Source: Pochonia chlamydosporia 170
Taxonomy: Eukaryota; Ascomycota; Sordariomycetes; Hypocreales; Clavicipitaceae
Assembly (NCBI RefSeq): GCF_001653235.2
Contig: NC_035794.1
Coordinates: forward strand, 1,798,001-1,862,000
DNA length: 64,000 nucleotides
Reading direction: 5' to 3'
Position numbers and translations under genes: made by a program. This document shows, one piece after another, positions 27,151 to 48,628 of the stretch. The notes under the pieces were generated by a model, which ran no database searches, was not told where the DNA came from, and worked only from the letters and a program-made list of their open reading frames with translations. The stretch's first letter is position 1. Every line of letters starts with the position of its first letter.

Positions 27151-29712
27151 ATGTTGCAAAAGCTAGTGAGCTTTCTCGCCGTGGTGGGAGTGGCTTCGGC
27201 TTCTCCCGCTGGCCAAGGCTCGATCAATCCCCGAGCCAGCAGCTTCTGGTATGCCAACATGGACCATACCGGTGCCGCCCGAGGGTATGCTCCGCATGTA
27301 GACAATCCGGGCTCTTATCCAGTCTTCAAGACAGTCAATCCAGGTGATGGGGGAGCTATTCAAAGCGCGATCGATACTGCTGGAAATGGTAATCGTCAGA
27401 ACCAATGGCTTGCATCGCAGCCCCGTGTATGTTCTTGCCCTGATGTTGTTATATTGGAGCTTTGAGCACTTACAATTAGATTACAGGTGGTTTATATTCC
27501 GCCTGGAACATACACGATCAGCAAGACTATCAACATGCGAACCGATACCATTCTCATGGGCGATGCGACCAACCCTCCTATTTTGAAGGCTGCCGCTGGA
27601 TTCAACGGCCAGACACTTCTCAACGGTAAGGTTCTCTATAATTGAAACAGGATCGGCAAAAGGCTAACCAGCATGCATTGCAGGTCAGGATCCTTCTACA
27701 GGAGTGTCTGGTGAGATCTCATTTGCTGTTGGCTTGAAGAATCTGGTTCTTGACACTACTGCCGTCAATGCAGGTAAGGCGGGATGAACTCTTCCACAAT
27801 GTTCGGCGTGTATTGACAAACATTTTAGGCCAGGGTTTTACTGCACTCTACTGGGGAGTCGCTCAGGTCGCCCAGCTTCAAAACATCAAGATTCAAATGC
27901 CCTCTTCAACCAACGGTGAAGGACACACTGGTATCAAGCTTGGCCGAGGCTCAACCCTTGGACTCGCCGACGTCCGAATTGAGAAGGGACTTGTAAGTGC
28001 TTTTGCATCTTTATAATCATCATGTAAACGGACCGCCGTTGACTTTTATTCCTCAGAACGGCATCTGGCACAACGGCCACCAGCAGGCGCTCTACAAGAA
28101 CATCTACTTCTACCAAAACACCGTCGGCATGCTCATCTCAGGAGGTAACACCATCACCCTTCTCGCTCCAACTTTTGACACCGTCGGCACGGGTGTAAAG
28201 AATACCGGCGGCAGCCCCTTTATTGGTATTGTCGATGGCAAGTCCATCAACTCTGGTGTCACATTCGATTCCTCGGTATATCCATCCATCGTCATCGACA
28301 ACCTCACCAAGGACACCAACTCGAACATTGTACAGCTGCCTAGCGGTACAGCCCTCGGCCCCTCCAGTCACGTAAACAATTTCTCTTTCGGAAACACAGT
28401 TGGTCGTAACCCCATCTACGGCGCGACAAACTCTGGCACCACTCGCCCTGGTGGTGTTGCTCCCGGCGGCAAGATTCCTTCCATTGCGGCGCCCACTTTC
28501 GCTAACAACCCTGTTTCGGACTTTATCAACGTGAAGGATTCGAAGCAAAATGGCGGTCAGACCATCAAAGGTGATGGCTCCGTCGATGAAGCTGCGGCAC
28601 TAAACAAAGTTCTCCAGTACGCTGCCGATAATAAGAAGATTGCCTACTTCCCCTTCGGCGACTACCGTGTTGAGTCAACTCTCCTTATCCCAATTGGGTC
28701 TCGCATCGTTGGAGAGGCATGGTCCACCATCTCCGGAGCAGGAAACTTCTTCAAGTCGTCATCTAGTCCGAAGCCTGTCGTGCAAGTTGGTAAGCCAGGC
28801 GATGTAGGTGTAGCTCAGATCCAAGACATGCGCTTCACCGTCGCAGACGTCCTGCCAGGCGCTATCATCATCCAGTTCCAAGCTGCTGGCTCAAATCCAG
28901 GCGATGTTGCTCTCTGGAACTCCGTTATCACTGTCGGCGGAACTCGCGGCGCAACACCATTGACTAATGCTTGCACAAACCCCGGAAAGGAGTGCCAGGC
29001 CGCATTCTTGGGCATGCATTTCGCCAAGGGATCTTCTGCCTATGTTGAGAACGTCTGGAATTGGGTCGCAGACCATATTACCGAAGGCTTCAACGGCGGA
29101 TCTAGCATCGCCGGAAAGGGTGGTGCCTTGGTTGAGTCCACAAAGGGAACTTGGTTGCATGCTCTGGGCAGCGAACATTGGTGGCTCTATCAGCTTAACC
29201 TCCGATCTGCTTCCAACGTTGTCGTTACTCTTTTGCAAAGCGAGACCAACTACGAGCAAGGCGACAACACGCAACAGATCCCTCCGGCGCCATGGACGGC
29301 CGATGTTCAGGGATGGGGTGATCCTGATTTCTCGTGGTGTGGCGGTGGTGATAAGCGTTGCCGCATGGGATTCGCCAACTACATTAACGGAGGATCTGAT
29401 ATTTACTTCTACGGATCAGCATCATGGGCGTTCTTCAGCGGTCCCGGATACCAGGGCTGTGCTGGGGCGTACCAGTGCCAGAGTAAGTGGTCACATCCAT
29501 CTAACCACAGAAGTATTCGACTACTGACGAGAAGTTTTACAGAATATATGCATTACATTGCAAAGACTCCTAAGAACCTTCAGGCTTACGGCTTGTGCGC
29601 CAAGGATACCAGCGTTGCTCTTCGTCTTGGCGATGGCACTGACATCCAGGCACAGAATGGATTCACTGGAGGATGGAATCCGGGTTCAGACATCGGTCGC
29701 TACACGACCTAA
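27151..29712 (+). CDS. Secreted exo-beta-1,3-glucanase, GH55
   Basis: Six exons: 27151-27426, 27487-27625, 27684-27773, 27829-27992, 28057-29482 and 29543-29712, total 754 residues, the usual size for GH55. Signal peptide at about residues 1-18 (LVSFLAVVGVASAS). Two pectate-lyase-3-like beta-helix halves follow: the first begins FWYANMDHTGAARGYAP and has VVYIPPGTYTISKTI; the second begins near NVKDSKQNGGQTIKGDG with IAYFPFGDYRVESTLLIP. Other family blocks are AFLGMHFAKGSSAYVENVW and WTADVQGWGDPDFSWC. It releases glucose or short units from beta-1,3-glucan outside the cell, in wall turnover or attack on other fungi. All splice sites are GT-AG with matching phases. Confidence 0.93.
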
Positions 29713-30297: not shown

Positions 30298-31865
30298 ATG
30301 GCTCATGAAAACAAAGAAGGCTACGAGCGTCGTATGACCGTCGTGAGAAACCTAATCCGTGGATTTGGCCTCGAGGTATGTAGACACTGGTTGCAGCGCA
30401 AACTCGAGTCGTTTATGCTTGTACCTTCTCACATGCAACGCGCTTCCCTCCATAAAATTGGACCAGAACAGTTGGAGGGCGATGCAGGTCCCCGTGGCAA
30501 TAAGATCACATGATAGCTATATATTGTGACTATTTTGCTGATCAATATTTTGTTTCTGAGCAGTGCGCCGATATCACGCCTCTGCGATGGAATGAAGATC
30601 AAACCTTTCCATACAATAACTTCATCTACAAAGTATCGCTATCTTCATTGGCTACAGCGGAACATTTCGCAGCAGCGTCTCAGTCAAGACAACCATGCAC
30701 AGACTTGCCCCCGTCGGAAGGGATCTCAACCGCGATTGTACGACTAAGTAATCCGAGGGCCTTGGGTATGAACAATGCGAACCGTGTTGAAAACGAAGTT
30801 GCGGCAATAAACCTCGCTCGTGACGCCATAGCACGAGTTGGCCCTGAATATACCAATCTTGTCCCGGCTGTTTTTGCCTGGAAGGCAGCCACAGACCCAA
30901 ATCCCGTCGACGAGACAGGGTTTGGATGGATCGTCATGGAGTACCTAACCGGGTCTTCTCTATACAAGCAGTTCAAGACATTTGACATGGGCAAAAAAAA
31001 TTCGATCATCATTGAGATTGCTGCCATATTCTCTGCCATTCAAGGGATAACATTACCACCTGGAGTTGACCGTTTTGGTGGCTTGACCATCAACGCTGCT
31101 GGTGATATTGTATCTGGCCAAGAGACCATGCAGTCTTCTCCTGGTGGTCCGTGGAAGGAGTATGACGACGTCTGGAGACACCAATTACTCTGCCAGCTGA
31201 AAGGCGCAGACAATAGCGAAGTTATTCAGGGCTGGAAAGCAAACGGACTCCGCGAAAGGATTGATAATTTTAGTCGAGCAAAATTACGCAGGGTTATTGA
31301 GCAGGCAGGTGTTGATATGTCCAAGTTGGCTTTTGTTCACCTCGATTTCAGTCAGTAATGATTCCAGACAATTGATTACCTGCAAATACCTGCTGACAGT
31401 AACTCTACAGCTATGAGCAACATGCTATACGACCCGGATAAGCAGCGAATTTCCGGCGTCGTTGACTTTGACTGGGCGGCCATAACCAACCCAGCCCACG
31501 AGTTCTTCACCTCGCTGCAGGATATGTACGGAACAGCGAATGAACAAGAGTCGGACAAGCTTCAACGAGCAATCCTAACAGGCGACTTTAGTGCCAATTC
31601 CGAAGCAGGGGAAGAGAAACATGCGGAGGCGTGGCAGCTTGCGGAAACTTGGCATAAGTCACTCAAGGAGCGTGGTGGCCTGCCTCTTAGCGATATACCA
31701 GGGATGGAAGTGCTTAACAAGCTGAACGATTTCATTGACTTACTTTGCCCGTGGCAACTGGGAAGTGAGGAGGCACTGAATCAGCGAACGGCTGAGCAGA
31801 ACACCAAGATTAAAGCAGATGCGGAGAAGGCTATTGATGACATGTTGTGCCAATGGAGTGTCTAG
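30298..31865 (+). CDS. APH-like phosphotransferase family protein
   Basis: Exons 30298-30375, 30564-31350 and 31411-31865 give 439 residues; intron 1 is 188 bp, long for this locus. Kinase-like features: an N-lobe YNNFIYKVSLSS strand, the hinge region WIVMEYLTGSSLYKQF, a catalytic loop that reads HLDFTMSNMLYD when intron 2 (31351-31410, CTGAC branch) is removed, matching HxDxxxxN, and the metal-binding strand GVVDFDWAAI. These are the aminoglycoside phosphotransferase/choline kinase fold signatures. Fungal genomes hold many such proteins of unknown substrate, often in accessory regions. It lies 0.9 kb upstream of the repeat precursor on the same strand; a functional link is speculation. Confidence 0.83.
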
Positions 31866-32740: not shown

Positions 32741-33211
32741 ATGCATTGCAAGCTCCTTACACCCGCCTTCCTGGCCATTATGGCCATCGCCTCTCCCATC
32801 CCGGACGGGACTCCAGCACCGGCAAGTGCTCTCGAAGAGCCCGCCGGCTATATTCCAAGCTGGGGACGCCGCGAGCCCGTCAATGCTGCCTCAGAAGGGA
32901 CGGAGAGTGCCCTCGAAGAGGTCATGGGCTATATTCCAAGCTGGGGTCGCCGTGAGCCCGTCAACGCTGCCTCGGATGACAAACCTGCTGATCTTGAGGC
33001 TCGACAGCCTCAGTTCAAAGTCCCATGGAAGAAGGGTGGTGCGGAGGAAGCTGTTACCCTGGAAAGTAGGGCGCCCCAATTCTTCAGAGTGTGGTGGAAG
33101 AACAACAAGGAGGGAACTGGCAAGGTCAGTGGGGATGAAGGTAAATCTGTTGAAGCTCGTGGTCCCCAGTTCAAGGTGCCATGGAAGAAGGGCGGTAATA
33201 CCGACGAATAG
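32741..33211 (+). CDS. Secreted repeat precursor, candidate Kex2-processed peptide (RiPP-like)
   Basis: An intronless 156-residue frame with a signal peptide at about 1-18 (LTPAFLAIMAIAS). Two repeat classes follow. Class A, residues 30-51 and 57-78, is LEE..GYIPSWGRREPVNAAS, each with an RR site. Class B, residues 85-100, 107-124 and 137-152, has LEARQPQFKVPWKKGG, LESRAPQFFRVWWKNNKE and VEARGPQFKVPWKKGG. There are no internal cysteines beyond Cys3. Signal peptide plus short aromatic cores bounded by basic pairs and acidic spacers is the layout of Kex2-processed repeat proteins. From memory, the QFKVPW core resembles the FKIPY core of the Epichloe gigA precursor (epichloecyclins). Cyclisation partners of the UstY/DUF3328 type were not recognised nearby. 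A linear secreted peptide or pheromone-like role is also possible. Confidence 0.75.
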   Translation: MHCKLLTPAFLAIMAIASPIPDGTPAPASALEEPAGYIPSWGRREPVNAASEGTESALEEVMGYIPSWGRREPVNAASDDKPADLEARQPQFKVPWKKGGAEEAVTLESRAPQFFRVWWKNNKEGTGKVSGDEGKSVEARGPQFKVPWKKGGNTDE

Positions 33212-33760: not shown

Positions 33761-34378
33761 TTACTGCTCATATAAGCACCAGACCTGCTTCTCCTTCTTG
33801 AGATGCTCAACAAATTCAACTGGAACTTTCAGCAGCTGAGACATAATATCCGGTGGTGTCGGGGCTAGCCACTGAGTTAAAGACATGGCGGCACCGCGAT
33901 CGGACTTGAATTTCTCAATCCAAATATGATCTTCGTCCCCAATGTTCTTTATGTAGTGACTATTTGTTATTGTTCTTATTCCAATAAGAAATGAAGTCTG
34001 GTAGAATCATACTTGTGGACTACGCCGCTATCACCTCTCGGAATACAGGCGCCGCGGATGCACAATAACTTGGTGTTGACATGCCAAAGCTGTCTGGGTT
34101 GGCCTGGTTCTGTCCGTTCCAGAGCATAACGTCGAGCACCTGGCGCAACTTGGTGATGCAAAATTCTCAGTATAATACCAAATCGGCCAACCGCAATCAG
34201 TTGTGTAAGCCGCAAAAGAAGACACAATTGGCCCAGCCACTACCAAGCATTGATCCAAATGGGGAACTAACCTTTGGCGGTTGGCGCTCTTGAATGCCTC
34301 TGAATGGTGAAGCAACCAACTATGAGCCGACTTTTCCGTCTTGGCCAGCCACTTTTCAACAATACCAATCGTCAGCAT
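33761..34378 (-). CDS. Small three-exon protein, unknown
   Basis: A model with consistent phases: exon 1 34378-34272, exon 2 34139-34035, exon 3 33959-33761, all GT-AG, giving 136 residues. It begins MLTIGIVEKWLAKTEKSAHS, and exon 3 encodes SHYIKNIGDEDHIWIEKF then a Pro-rich turn and a helical end LLKVPVEFVEHLKKEK. No signal peptide, membrane segment or known motif was recognised. The first intron (132 bp) is the weakest part; another acceptor could be used. It is divergent from the SDR-like gene, 228 bp start to start, so the two may be co-regulated. A small enzyme of the alpha-beta barrel or SnoaL kind is possible but not shown. Confidence 0.45.
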
Positions 34379-34606
34379 TTTTCAGCACAATTGATACTTT
34401 TCTTTCGTCAAAGAGACTAAAGCGATGAGACATACAATTATCAATAATCTACAACAGCAATGTTCAGAAAAGTATATATACGATGGCAAAGTCGAAAGTA
34501 TCACAGGGCATTCAATTTACACAACAACCGAGACTTCATTGCTTGCATTAAGATTTAGCAATTCCATCTCCTACTTCAATTGAAACAAGCTTCTACACCA
34601 TATACA
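34379..34606. promoter_or_regulatory. Short bidirectional promoter region
   Basis: Only 228 bp separate the two divergent start codons. A TATATATA stretch lies at about 34474-34481. This is compact enough to act as a shared promoter. Confidence 0.5.
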
Positions 34607-35346
34607 ATGGTTGGATCACGGCACTCACTCGTGTTAATCGGCTGTGGCCCTGGTATTGGCAGGTCCATTGCTTCGGTATTTGCTTCCAAGAGATATGACA
34701 CGATTGGTCTCGTCGCCAGGCGACAGTCACAGCTCGACGCCGATCGTAAGGCGGTCGAGGCTGTAGCTCCAGGTACCAAGGTCCACACATACGTGGCAGA
34801 TATTGCAGATGGCCCAAGTCTCAAGGAGACTCTTAAACAGATAAGCTATGATATTGGAATTCCTGAGACTGTCTATTTTAATGCGGCTGTCATCCGTCCC
34901 ACCTCTATATCTGACGAGACAGAGGAGGCCATGATATATGATTTCAAGGTGAGAACTCCCTCAGCATCTTGGCAGTACCTTACTAACACTAGTACTAGAT
35001 CACCAATACGGCTCTGCTTCACACAGCACAGTGGGCTTTTCCCCAGCTTGTAAGCCTCGCGCAGTCTGACGCTATGGCCAAGCCCTCCTTTCTCGTGACA
35101 GGAACTTGGATCTCTCGAGATCCTGTCACTCAAATCTTCACTTTGTCATTGGTCAAAGCTGCTCAGCGCAACTTGACCCAATCTCTTGCGCAGGTGTATG
35201 GTCCTCAGGGCGTGCATGTTGGCATGGTGCGCGTTATGGGCGTTGTCGACCCCAAGACCCTCAGCCCTGAGAGCATCGCAGAGAAAGCTTGGGAGCTATT
35301 CGATGAGCCCAAGGATAAGCAGGCCTTTGAGATGGAGGCAAAGTAG
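34607..35346 (+). CDS. SDR-like protein without the catalytic tyrosine
   Basis: Exons 34607-34948 and 34999-35346 (50-bp intron with a perfect CTAAC branch) give 229 residues. A Rossmann start LVLIGCGPGIGRSIASVF (residues 8-25) and the following basic VARRQ indicate an NADP-binding SDR fold. In place of NNAG it has YFNAAVI, and at the active site it reads TLSLVKAAQRNL: the Lys is kept but the Tyr four residues before it is Leu, and no clear catalytic Ser is seen. The protein is slightly short. It belongs, from memory, to a group of fungal short SDR-like proteins of unknown role. Catalysis by the normal mechanism is unlikely. Cytosolic. Confidence 0.78.
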
Positions 35347-35845: not shown

Positions 35846-36975
35846 ATGGTCACGCTCCCAGAACCATTTGCTTCTATCCCGAGACTACCTCTGACTTTCT
35901 CTACGCCGCCTGTGATCGAGCCCCTGGATAGATTATCATCTCACCTCGGTCGGAATGCGAAGTCTCCAGTCCGCCTATATGTCTGTCGCGAGGACATGAA
36001 CAGCGGTCTTGGGGGAGGTGGTGGCAACAAGCTGCGCAAGTTGGAATATGGTATGACTAAACGAGTTTCCTACTCTCATCATACGCAAAATTCCATCTAA
36101 CAAAATGTTCTGTAGTGCTTGCTGATGCGGTTTCTCAATCGCCACGGCCAGAATACCTCGTCACAGAGGGCGGGATCCAGAGCAATCATGTCCGCCAAGT
36201 TGCCGCAGCAGGAGCAAAGTTGGGCTTCAAATCTGTCCTAATCGTTGCCGACAGAGTCCCAGAGAGGACAGCCAGCGCAAACTCCATCATTAGCAATAAT
36301 TACAAGGAGCAGGGGAATGTGCAGCTTACTGATCTCATGTCTGCAACAAGAGAGATCGAACCAGGGACTACTGCGAAGGAACTTTTAAATACCAGTCAAG
36401 CATATTGGATACCGTCCGGGGCCTCGATACATCCGCTTGGTGGATTGGGCTACGCAAGATGGGCTTTTGAGCTTATGCAGAAAGAAGAAGAAATGGGCGT
36501 GTTCTTCGATTCTATCGTTGTCCCCTCCATGTCTGGAAGCACAATCGGTGGTATGGCGGTGGGCTTCGCACTAGCAGAGCAAATTCAAAAGCAAAAGGGG
36601 GAGACACCTCGCCGACGAAGATTGATAGGTGTGGCAGCGGGCCCGAAATCCAAGGAGAGCTTCGTGGAACTCGTTTCGGGCATCATAAAGACAGCCGGCA
36701 CCAAGATTGGGCTTGAAGACCAGAGTCCAGCTGATGAGAGATTCGAGGTTGACCTCAGGTGGCATGGCGGCGGGTATGGAAAGTTAGATGATAGGACCAA
36801 AGAGCGCATCAAGCTTGCGGCGAGTACTGAGGGATTGATTACTGATGCTGTGTACTCTGGGAAGGCTTTGACGGGAGTTTGCGAAATGGTAGAAGCAGGG
36901 GAGCTCGAGGGGAATGTTTTGTTTGTACACACGGGAGGCGTACTTTCTCTGAGTGCGTATCCTGACTTGCGATGA
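35846..36975 (+). CDS. ACC deaminase / D-cysteine desulfhydrase family PLP enzyme
   Basis: Exons 35846-36050 and 36116-36975 (65-bp intron) give 354 residues. The PLP lysine lies in [13 protein letters not shown] at about residues 55-67. [15 protein letters not shown] follows, then [20 protein letters not shown] and [17 protein letters not shown] (phosphate-binding Ser/Thr loop), and near the end [18 protein letters not shown]. This order is that of 1-aminocyclopropane-1-carboxylate deaminase and the closely related D-cysteine desulfhydrase. ACC deaminase breaks the ethylene precursor to 2-oxobutyrate and ammonia and is known from plant-associated fungi such as Trichoderma and Penicillium. 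Sequence by eye does not separate the two activities. Start context ACCATGG is strong. Confidence 0.85.
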
Positions 36976-40859: not shown

Positions 40860-41801
40860 TTAGACAGTGGAACTATTGCCGGTGAGAGTTGCAGTCCCGC
40901 TTCCTTTCGGCAAGGCGGTTTCATGATCTTCCGGGGCGTAGCGGTGCTCGCTGAAGGCTAGATGCAAACGATGATAATCCCACTTGCTTGCTAATATTAT
41001 GAACAGCAATGCAAGCGCCGGCACTGCTAGCATATCAAGAATACCAAAGAAGATGAAGCTGCCCGTAATGCCTATGATGTTGCCGCCATCGCTAAGCCCA
41101 AAAGAAATAGGGTACAGGACCCAGGAAAAATTTGCTACCGCGGAAAGTATCATATAGTCCCGAGAAATGCCAATACGTGACGCTGCTTCGCGGCTCTCAT
41201 TAAGCGTGCTCATGGCGAGAATGATCCAGCATAGAGTTCCGAACGCGAAAAGGCCCCATTTATAGCTTGTTGTAGTATAGGCAGCGGCGAGGTAAGTTAT
41301 CACCCAGAGGAGGGACACAAATATGTTTGTAACGATGGTGGTCCAAGAGACGTTGGATAGTAGGCCCAGCGCTAGGCTAGCAGAAGGGAAGGCGACAGCC
41401 CAGTTTATATACTTGGCGTAAAACATCTGGCGAGAAGAACCGTTGCCGAGCTGGTCGACCTGCTTGACTGTGCTCCAGCCTAGATCAGCAGCCTCTGCGT
41501 AGTATGTCACAGTGCCAACGAGGAGGGTGATGGTGAACAGGTAATGAAAAACCCTATCACTCTCGGGGGTGGTGAAGCAGAAAGTTAGGAGAATGAGCTA
41601 CAATGAAACCAGAATATCAACATTAGATCTCCAAGATTAATAGTAATCAAAGGACAAAGTAGTGTTGGCACTTACGAATGCGAGCAAGTGAACTGCCATA
41701 ACTGCCCAAAGCCAATCGGATCCTGCCAGAGATAGGGTCTCATCCGGCCCAAGGGGGGGATTGACTTTTAAAGCGTCATTTGCACGAAGGAATAGAGTCA
41801 T
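40860..41801 (-). CDS. Opsin-related membrane protein (HSP30/YRO2/MRH1-like)
   Basis: Exons 41801-41676 and 41597-40860 give 287 residues; the in-frame ATG at 41867 is an alternative start with a weaker context. Seven membrane segments are likely, and the features of fungal opsin-related proteins are present: GSDWLWAVMAVHLLAF in helix A, YYAEAADLGWS, FYAKYINWAVAFPSASLALG in helix C, and FFGILDMLAVPALALLFI in helix G. Light-sensing opsins carry a retinal-binding Lys in helix G (LDxxxK); here that position is Val, so no Schiff base can form. Such proteins (S. cerevisiae Hsp30, Mrh1, Yro2) sit in the plasma membrane and respond to stress. The C-terminal tail is charged. Confidence 0.85.
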
Positions 41802-45752: not shown

Positions 45753-47233
45753 GTTTAAAGATTCAAAGATTTCTGAAACCACTTCTCGTTCAATATCTGG
45801 ATCAAATAATATAGTGGTATGCTTTACCTAGGGTCAGAATCAATGTCCCCATATGTTCAGTTATGACACCAGCACGATCTCAGCCTGTAAACGGATAGCA
45901 GCATATATAATCATTCAAGACCTCTAAATGACCTCCTTCCATTTCAATTCCTATACAACTTTCCTCCAGTGGCCAAAGGCTAGTTTATGCAATGCATCCA
46001 TCACTTCCCTCCGGTGTGGCTTCGTGGCGCCCAACACAATGGTTCGCGGCGTAGCAATGGCTCGTGGCGATTAATTTGGGCGAACCAACGATCGTGAGAG
46101 GACATGCTAGTTCGAAATTTACCTGATCAAGCTTTCTTTAAGCTGTGAGGTAAAGCAGGCACAACTGCCGATACGAGATATCGTAAGCCCCATGACGATA
46201 TTTACCGGTTGGGTGTTTTATGCGCTTCTCGCTGATGCATTTGCTTATCGATGCATACTCCACTGGTCGAATTGAATCATTTTGCCCGTGGAGATGTTCA
46301 TGTCGCTTTATGTTAAGACGAGGTAATTTAAGGTCAAATATGAAAGATGGGAATCGGTCTATACCTTACAACAACGCAAACTGGGACATTCCGACAAGAA
46401 AACAGCCACAATTATCATTCCGGGTAAGCCCAAGTCACTCGTAGCTTGGAAATGATGAAAAGTGTCGGATGTCAGCGAATTGGTGGGATACGTCAGATAT
46501 GGCGCTCCGCAAGCCTTTGGTCGACAGGTCCAATTGGGGGCATGGCTATGAAGCACATCATGAAGATTAAAGTTTGCGGTCAAGGGGGCCGGGCTCTATC
46601 AAGAACGGACAAATGGGTCATACCAAACGAATTATTAGTACTCTAGCAGTATGTCCAAAATCAGGATGCATATTCCGACGCGTCCGAACCAAGAGAGAAC
46701 TGCGATCGCACTTAGTGGAGAAGCCTTGCCATTTGTGTGCTTCAAGGTCGAATGAAACTGGAAAAGAGAGATTCACGGCGTAGACTGTATCATCTTGGCT
46801 ATTCAAGGCGGTTATATGCTAGTTCATCAAAAGCTACCAACATACGTCATAGCACTGATATATCTCCAGGGGGTATCTCTGACTGACCGACTGCGTTAAA
46901 ACCACCAGTGAGTGATGTTAAGTACTACCCGACAGTTCGAGGCTGTACAGGTGTTTCCGGATTCGACAACCTCATGAGACCAGCTTCTTCTTCTATTGGC
47001 ATGGTTCTGCCACAGCATGTATCCAACATTTTGGACTTTGTGCCAACATGGAAAGTAGATCAACCCAAGCTCTCGTCCACATTAGCGCCACTCCACCAAC
47101 ATGACTCACTTTCCAACCTGTTGACCTTACAACCATTTAGCAAGATACAATTACATGTCAACGGAAACCTCATCGCGAAAGATACCAACTCCAACACCAG
47201 TCATGGAGTTCACGCGCGGACGGTGAAGCGAAG
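45753..47233. promoter_or_regulatory. Divergent intergenic region, about 1.5 kb, with uORF
   Basis: Holds the promoters of the cupredoxin and of the Zn2Cys6 gene starting at 47234. A short upstream ORF, ATG at 47203 to TGA at 47224-47226 (seven codons plus stop), ends 7 bp before the main ATG. Such a placement could reduce translation of the factor if the transcript starts upstream of it. No other gene recognised. Confidence 0.45.
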
Positions 47234-48628
47234 ATGAGCAGCAATACATCCGCAACAGACTGCAAAGTTTGTGCCCGACGCAGGATTCGCTGTGACCGCA
47301 CAAGGCCGTCCTGCCTTAAATGTACGAAACGAAACATCGAATGCCCCGGCTACGGCCGGAATATCCGATGGGCAAATGCGGTAGCGGTGAGGGGCCGTTT
47401 CAAAGGGATGCAATATCCGAAGGAACAATCTCAGAACGACGGGTCTGACAAGTGGACGAAATCTGCAGCAACGATAGCCAAATTGGTCGCGGGGGCGCCA
47501 AACACTGGGGAAATTGAACGTTTGGTCTCTTACTATTCAAAGGAAATTGCCGGAAATATGATCTGGGTGGACTCGCCGTCCAACCCTTACAGACGGCTGG
47601 TCGTATCCAAGGCACAGTCGTCGCCGGTGATACTTCTCGCCATCATCGCCGTATCTGCTGAGCACAGGGGAGTTGGGAGTTTGGAACCGTCGCTCCTTGC
47701 ATTCGCTCCTAGGGCATGCGATATCGTCGTTTCAAAACTCACTCAAGAATTATCCAAAATCACAGACAGGTCAGAGAGCTTACAACCACGAGACATTTTG
47801 GATCTAGAAACTGTAGAATGGGTTCTCGCCTCAATGCTCATCCTCTCCAACTACGAATGTATTGGAGACACCTCAACGGCGTGGTGCTCACATCGGCTCG
47901 GCGCACGCCTTCTGGTGAATGCCTTTTCCGACTCTAGCGCTGAATCTAGCGAGCTGTTCAGATTTCTACGTGCTCAGTTTGGCATTCACGACGTCTTGGC
48001 TTCCACAACTACATGCCTGTATCTTGGTACAGATGGCGTGGTGCTTCCAAAGCAGGGAGACCCAGAGGCATTGCTGGCGGAATACATGAGACTTATTCAC
48101 CGGCTCACAGTCCTTGTAACAAATAAGACGACGCAGGATATACCGCCTCCAGCAGTTCTACGGATCGAGTTCGAAAATACCCGTGGCCTGACGCTTATGA
48201 ATGCGGCATCCTCAGCTGCTCTTGCAGGCGAGTCCGCTCGAGTGAGTTTCATTCAGCTGGTTGACGTTCATCATCTTGCAGCGCTGCTCTATGCGTATCG
48301 GTGTATATATGACTTCACATCCCAGGACGTTGAGGTTACACTCATAATGCAACAACTATTTGAGAAGCTTCAACACTGTGCATCCAACGATGCGCTGATT
48401 CAGCACTTGACCTGGCCGGTGTTCGTTGCCGGAACTGAGTGCTACGACTACGACGAAAAGCAGGATTTGGTATTAAAGTGGTATGGTGAGATAATCAGCA
48501 AGACCGGGTTTAAGAACTACGAAGTTGTGGTGTCGTTTCTGAGGCAATTGTGGGAAGAAAAGCCGGAGAGCTGGTTGGAAATGGCTAAAACTTGGGAACG
48601 AGACGGCAAGCCTTTGTTAGCGGTATAA
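47234..48628 (+). CDS. Zn2Cys6 transcription factor (Fungal_trans_2 type)
   Basis: An intronless frame of 464 residues. The zinc cluster is at the very N terminus: CKVCARRRIRC (10-20) then DRTRPSCLKCTKRNIEC, with CPGYG directly after, the hallmark of the Fungal_trans_2 class (ACR-2/UPC2-like). The remainder is helical with ERLVSYYSKEIAGNM, then a typical LLAIIAVSAEHR block and an end VVSFLRQLWEEKP. Length is usual for the class. A nuclear regulator. It is convergent with the PhyH-type dioxygenase, with 166 bp between stop codons; a regulator next to an accessory oxygenase suggests, but does not show, that one acts on the other. Confidence 0.9.
   Translation: MSSNTSATDCKVCARRRIRCDRTRPSCLKCTKRNIECPGYGRNIRWANAVAVRGRFKGMQYPKEQSQNDGSDKWTKSAATIAKLVAGAPNTGEIERLVSYYSKEIAGNMIWVDSPSNPYRRLVVSKAQSSPVILLAIIAVSAEHRGVGSLEPSLLAFAPRACDIVVSKLTQELSKITDRSESLQPRDILDLETVEWVLASMLILSNYECIGDTSTAWCSHRLGARLLVNAFSDSSAESSELFRFLRAQFGIHDVLASTTTCLYLGTDGVVLPKQGDPEALLAEYMRLIHRLTVLVTNKTTQDIPPPAVLRIEFENTRGLTLMNAASSAALAGESARVSFIQLVDVHHLAALLYAYRCIYDFTSQDVEVTLIMQQLFEKLQHCASNDALIQHLTWPVFVAGTECYDYDEKQDLVLKWYGEIISKTGFKNYEVVVSFLRQLWEEKPESWLEMAKTWERDGKPLLAV

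Follow-up and report, generated by a model that had tools for sequence, protein, structure and literature searches.

The window, that is, the whole stretch of DNA analysed (64,000 nucleotides of contig NC_035794.1 of Pochonia chlamydosporia 170, positions 1,798,001 to 1,862,000 of the forward strand), carries near its middle an intron-free ORF for a protein of 156 amino acids, which is probably a real, lineage-restricted KEP-like precursor. This ORF, hereafter the precursor, and genes recognised around it are listed here by their position in the window:

27997-29709, pectate-lyase-fold protein (Pfam)
30510-31865, plus strand, APH-like phosphotransferase in two ORFs, probably exons (PF01636, E 1.9e-5 in the second ORF, no match in the first)
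32741-33211, plus strand, precursor ORF, 156 aa, no intron (ORF list; best codon score in its frame)
32741-32794, plus strand, signal-peptide-like start MHCKLLTPAFLAIMAIAS of the precursor (Kyte-Doolittle hydrophobic run; cleavage site approximate)
33780-34381, minus strand, possible multi-exon gene
34559-35050, short-chain dehydrogenase (Pfam)
36061-36972, PLP enzyme (Pfam)
40863-41597, minus strand, bacteriorhodopsin-like gene (PF01036, E 5.9e-14)
47141-48625, plus strand, transcription factor of the Fungal_trans_2 / Zn2-Cys6 type (protein search)

The surroundings were scanned with Pfam in 30 of the 111 window ORFs of at least 110 amino acids, the precursor aside; ten of those scanned gave no match, and neither a protease nor a known peptide-modifying enzyme was found among the matches. 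The end of the APH-like kinase lies about 0.9 kb 5' of the precursor, and the first-pass annotation of this DNA had put it forward as a possible partner; the kinase is indeed there, but position alone links it to the precursor. Directly downstream of the precursor, one ORF of the minus-strand gene at 33780-34381 was scanned and had no Pfam match, and by eye this gene resembles cupin-type proteins. The transcription factor shows 96% identity to one protein, 69-73% to several Trichoderma proteins, 64% to a protein of Xylogone, 65% over 46% of the query to one of Oidiodendron, and 31-38% to proteins of Phialocephala, Clonostachys, Hirsutella and one other Trichoderma protein (36%), a scattered distribution for which horizontal transfer or paralogy may account.

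The coding status of the precursor was studied by codon usage, trained on ten neighbouring ORFs, and its frame came out on top of the six, with 0.233 bits per codon versus 0.076 for the next; a TATA-like element 326 bases 5' of the ATG adds weak evidence. The N-terminus is hydrophobic in Kyte-Doolittle windows of 11 residues (residues 3-22) and, by hydropathy, fits a signal peptide; the protein is probably secreted. The mature part has no Cys, and taken as a whole it is predicted to be disordered in a charge-hydropathy comparison (0.396 versus a boundary of 0.421).

Within this mature part we found two identical GYIPSWGRREPVNAAS blocks and three units of the form [LV]E[AS]R-xPQF, in the following order (all on the plus strand, by repeat comparison, the slash being the candidate cut):

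32846-32893, unit 1, GYIPSWG-RR/EP-VNAAS, with RR at 32867-32872
32927-32974, unit 2, the same 16 residues as unit 1 with 4 synonymous differences, with RR at 32948-32953
32993-33034, unit 3, LEAR/QP-QFKVPW-KK
33059-33100, unit 4, LESR/AP-QFFRVWWK, without a dibasic end
33149-33190, unit 5, VEAR/GP-QFKVPW-KK

The ORF and its two kinds of repeat are thus as first annotated, and the repeats exceed chance: within the mature part, the longest stretch that recurs exactly measures 16 residues, a length reached by none of 2000 shuffles (shuffle maximum 6), and at the DNA level two repeat pairs are seen, one of 76 nt at 84% identity with a spacing of 81 and another of 47 nt at 81% with a spacing of 156. 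When the five units were aligned as one family, the two classes did not line up in one register and had only E, R and P in common, and no shared ancestry between them is claimed. The annotation had given all three units of the second class basic ends; a dibasic end (KK) is seen in units 3 and 5 only, unit 4 ending in WWKNNK; as a repeat copy, unit 4 keeps LESR and xPQF and has lost VPW.

The way in which the copies diverge was then compared. The two 16-codon GYIPSWGRREPVNAAS blocks differ by 4 synonymous and no non-synonymous nucleotides (binomial p 0.004), whereas units 1 and 2 taken with their flanks (23 codons) differ at a synonymous to non-synonymous ratio of 5:5 (p 0.066), so that the constraint lies on the GYIPSWGRREPVNAAS core block and does not extend to the unit as a whole. 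For units 3 and 5 the ratio is 6:4 over 16 codons (p 0.012), with replacements at P4 (L or V, aliphatic in either case) and at the first residue of X-P (Q or G); unit 4 is strongly diverged, with 6:21 against unit 3 and 3:22 against unit 5. The residue before the P is Q, A and G in units 3, 4 and 5, respectively, and the P is invariant. Judged from these substitutions, units 1, 2, 3 and 5 look preserved as peptides, and unit 4 loosely so.

The mature part holds 8 Arg, 7 of which lie in five candidate sites, namely WGRR twice, LEAR, LESR and VEAR, in other words two RR and three L/V-x-x-R; KR is absent from the protein, and there are four dibasic sites in total. All five Arg sites are followed by X-P (EP, EP, QP, AP and GP) and neither of the two KK sites is, both of them being followed by GG. 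In alpha-pheromone precursors, X-P or X-A behind a Kex2 site is the signature of STE13 (PMC6339444), and this feature of the ascomycete alpha-pheromone is seen here at every candidate Arg site, a point that had gone unremarked in the first-pass annotation, whose interpretation is partly supported. With K and R fixed and the other residues shuffled, P fell at all five sites in 4 of 200,000 shuffles; because the repeats share ancestry and are not independent, a count with one site per unit class was also used, and this gave 2994 of 200,000 (about 0.015), so the independent support for the X-P pattern is modest.

Not all these sites are of the same quality. LxxR with an aliphatic P4 is an extended Kex2 motif according to PMC8528282, and the P2 residues of the three LxxR sites, Ala or Ser, are outside those named in that paper. 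The same source describes P1 as almost exclusively Arg, which makes KK a poor Kex2 site. Regarding charge, each of the two fragments of the QPQFKVPWKK type has +3, with -2 to -3 in most spacers. The fragments that contain GYIPSWG, by contrast, are long and negatively charged (-1 and -3), so a cationic core is a feature of the QFKVPW units only.

As to processing machinery, profile and pattern searches were extended to the whole assembly. Matches to the kexin P-domain were found at three places, as six exon matches (contig C6, position 2570707; C12, 363327; C15, 14482). The C12 and C15 matches score identically, which would fit either an extra kexin or a duplicated stretch; a single kexin is described as usual in PMC8528282. 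DPPIV_N, the domain of DPPIV-type peptidases, gave two matches, and STE2 one place, with two adjacent exon matches. An alpha-pheromone core pattern gave 11 matches versus 6 in the control, five of them within 500 bases on contig C2 and in one ORF:

C2, 5309487-5310416, alpha-pheromone precursor, 309 aa, with WC[WH]RPGQ[PS]CW cores (pattern search)

The canonical gene thus sits elsewhere, and the idea that the precursor of the window is the alpha-pheromone gene of this genome was discarded. Cutting the alpha-precursor at KR or RR yields 11 fragments, and its core borders are KR; two of its four [LIV]xxR sites read LKER/EP and LTAR/EP, and R/X-P is common to another secreted precursor of this fungus. 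Its cores are WCWRPGQ[PS]CW and WCHRPGQSCW, with the odd variant WCWRPGEPCF and a longer FPDICNGPGILCW segment.

No homologue of the precursor came to light in two protein database searches. With the precursor as query, 92 word-sharing candidates were obtained, none at E <= 1, and a lengthened query of 294 aa (residues 1-156 scored), aimed at longer relatives, brought 426 candidates, none at E <= 10. As a control, the neighbouring transcription factor finds 34 relatives in the same database; the database does hold fungal proteins, so the lack of a homologue is informative, within a search that could miss unannotated, very short or word-poor relatives. Against PDB the precursor had one match, at E 0.52, and in Pfam it matched IRF alone, below threshold (E 0.028, 15.2 bits versus a cut-off of 27), which was taken as chance. 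The five core strings, together with four alpha-pheromone strings, brought up no mention in openly licensed PMC papers.

Paralogues were also looked for in the 44.2-Mb genome (49 contigs), where the whole precursor matches only itself at E <= 0.001. A DNA pattern for EAR.PQF with up to one mismatch gave 56 matches, versus 32 for the reversed-pattern control, and four were exact: two in the precursor gene, one on C21 and one on C1. Of the matches outside the gene, the follow-up covered the exact one on C21, which was rejected as a paralogue, being in another frame and overlapping an ORF that by eye looks like a zinc-knuckle gene and is probably part of a transposable element. The pattern YIPSWG[KR] gave 8 matches versus 3 in its control, two of them in the precursor gene; the follow-up covered the one other exact match, on C9, which was rejected because it falls within a long ORF, by eye of the NLR/TPR type, but in a different frame. 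An identical 21-base string was seen at six places (C2, C20 twice, C33, C41 and C42), mostly small contigs; C20 and C21 also carry near-copies. The string probably belongs to a transposable-element family, since the C21 copy overlaps the zinc-knuckle-like ORF.

How the precursor relates to known KEPs was examined with the two published counting rules, and strict KEP status is not supported. The rule of Le Marquer (PMC6339444) cuts at KR/RR, or failing that at KK, and requires 4 or more fragments, 3 or more of them similar; the precursor falls into 3 fragments with either cut. The rule of Umemura (PMC7329392) requires three or more tandem repeats, each 8 aa or longer, between KR, KK, RK or RR; here 5 fragments result, at most 2 of them alike, as judged by inspection. 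It shares with the KEPs of both papers the signal-peptide-like start, the short repeated units and the basic sites, but it has four dibasic sites with no KR, and three of its five candidate Arg cuts are monobasic LxxR. The precursor is consequently outside the formal KEPs; should the LxxR sites be used, it would be KEP-like in its working. More than one kind of repeat in a protein has precedents, 79 of 1193 KEPs having two or three motif types (PMC6339444). Of 7878 KEPs, 2560 are stand-alone (PMC7329392), so orphan status is no argument against a KEP-like nature.

What does stand of the Kex2-processed repeat precursor first proposed is a probably secreted protein with two kinds of core, main repeats that look constrained as protein, and a genome with kexin P-domains and two DPPIV-type genes. 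We favour, with moderate confidence, a secreted, largely disordered multi-peptide precursor that would be matured in the style of alpha-factor into short linear peptides ending in Trp, restricted to this lineage. The signal peptide would be removed first, and kexin would then cut after the two RR sites and the three L/V-E-A/S-R sites, which follow the extended LxxR motif, with weaker cutting after KK. Trimming of the basic ends would fall to a Kex1-type carboxypeptidase, and removal of the X-P cap to a STE13-type dipeptidyl aminopeptidase. The predicted products are short and linear, with Trp or Trp-Gly at the C-terminus: two copies of QFKVPW, pyroGlu-capped (predicted [M+H]+ 787.41), a QFFRVWW-type variant from unit 4, and peptides of some 23-25 residues that finish in GYIPSWG. 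The computed m/z values are 804.44 for uncapped QFKVPW, 1029.55 for QPQFKVPW, 958.51 for GPQFKVPW, 1068.54 or 1051.51 for QFFRVWW and 2397.09 for VNAASEGTESALEEVMGYIPSWG. Outside the cell, these peptides would most likely act unmodified, as a signal or an interaction factor other than the mating pheromone. We infer the cleavage, trimming, expression and role of these peptides. Against the reading stand the outcome of both KEP rules, the lack of a homologue, the Ala or Ser at P2, the KK sites, which are poor and followed by GG, the missing basic-pair end of unit 4, the acidic charge of the GYIPSWG fragments, and the absence of KR, used at the core borders of the alpha-precursor.

The predicted maturation has counterparts in known systems. 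With ascomycete alpha-pheromone precursors the precursor shares the architecture of kexin, carboxypeptidase and X-P/X-A dipeptidase sites, but the cores differ and the alpha-precursor of this genome is a separate gene. Among Coprinopsis KEPs, KEP 490115 expressed in P. pastoris yielded QMRPPSW and (pyro)QYKAPSW after X-A/X-P removal, with single-Arg cuts in such KEPs that the authors consider possibly those of Kex2, and GPPAPSW was found in C. cinerea culture, from a non-repetitive part of KEP 447393 (PMC9769878). The predicted QFKVPW and GYIPSW(G) resemble QYKAPSW, QMRPPSW and GPPAPSW from that study in having P(S)W at or near the end; Coprinopsis is a basidiomycete, and the likeness, which rests on peptides and not on precursors, may be convergent, with no kinship claimed. 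Six Coprinopsis KEP knockouts are described with normal growth and fruiting (PMC9769878), so function is elusive even where such peptides are made.

The main rival to a pheromone-style precursor is an intact small secreted protein, either an effector or wall-associated, whose repeats arose by duplication and whose basic sites are incidental or serve to remove a pro-segment. The outcome of both KEP rules, the mixed and weak sites and the low copy numbers of the repeat classes (2 and 3) speak for it, and a class of proteins with a pro-domain and LxxR sites exists (PMC8528282). As defined there, Kex2-processed pro-domain effectors (K2PP) have KR, RR or LxxR in the first half, and the precursor has RR at residues 43-44 and 70-71 of 156; its candidate sites continue to residue 150, and a K2PP consists of a disordered pro-segment and then a single mature effector. 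A mature part without Cys and predicted disordered, Arg almost confined to X-P-capped sites, and GYIPSWGRREPVNAAS blocks that diverge synonymously only argue against an intact protein, and we regard it as unlikely, although not so unlikely as the readings that follow.

A cyclic RiPP of the dikaritin or epichloecyclin kind, with Kex2-cut cores cyclised by UstYa/DUF3328 enzymes encoded elsewhere, would agree with the signal-peptide-like start, the repeats, the basic sites and the Tyr and Ile of GYIPSW, and the at least 48 UstYa exon matches in the genome (E <= 0.001) make unlinked enzymes possible. A UstYa/DUF3328 neighbour accompanies 22% of KEP genes, with a mean of 3.09 genes in accompanied cases (PMC7329392). 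The earlier statement that no DUF3328 gene lies nearby was confirmed at the sensitivity of the profile search: on C5, the contig of the precursor, there is no UstYa match between 989,628 and 2,196,583, although a strongly diverged copy could escape, and the nearest matches lie about 365 kb downstream and about 841 kb upstream, so that the DUF3328 proteins reported in dikaritin clusters (PMC6514808) were not found near the precursor gene. The kinship to Epichloe gigA suggested for the FKVPW core is not supported: both are secreted repeat precursors, as in dikaritins, but gigA has KR sites (PMC6514808) and a Tyr-based ring (PMC6514808, PMC9233826), a comparison made by description and not by sequence, whereas the QFKVPW and QFFRVWW cores have no Tyr and the protein no KR. 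In addition, X-P caps are described as absent from cyclic-peptide and epichloecyclin precursors (PMC6339444). The X-P after every candidate Arg site points to linear pheromone-style maturation over cyclisation, and the cyclic reading appears improbable.

Two further readings are very improbable. A second or diverged alpha-type mating pheromone would share the architecture, the X-P caps and the LxxR/EP also seen in the alpha-precursor of this genome, but the canonical gene is present on C2, a single STE2 place was found, and the cores share no Cys or GQ motif with alpha-pheromone. Equally remote are Rep1-like structural peptides coating hyphae: here, too, short aromatic peptides would come from a repeat precursor, and Rep1 peptides form amyloid-like fibrils (PMC8528282), but QFKVPW is a short, cationic core present in few copies, and Rep1 is described as lacking the X-P cap (PMC6339444).

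Returning to the pheromone-style precursor, a more specific form of it is an ascomycete non-mating peptide signal, Trp-ended and X-P-capped like those described for basidiomycete KEPs, with two peptides in one precursor behind two grades of kexin site (RR for GYIPSWG, LxxR for QFKVPW), which we put forward as speculative. If true, the ratio of GYIPSWG to QFKVPW peptides could follow kexin activity, and both dibasic-only genome screens (PMC6339444 and PMC7329392, as described there) would miss such a precursor.

The predicted masses make the release of the peptides directly testable. If the cores stay unreleased, the gene would encode an ordinary orphan small secreted protein; if they are released, they would constitute an undescribed family of secreted peptides, and dibasic-only KEP screens would be overlooking precursors cut at LxxR. 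Arg, then X-P, then a short core ending in Trp may serve as a search rule for similar genes in other fungi.
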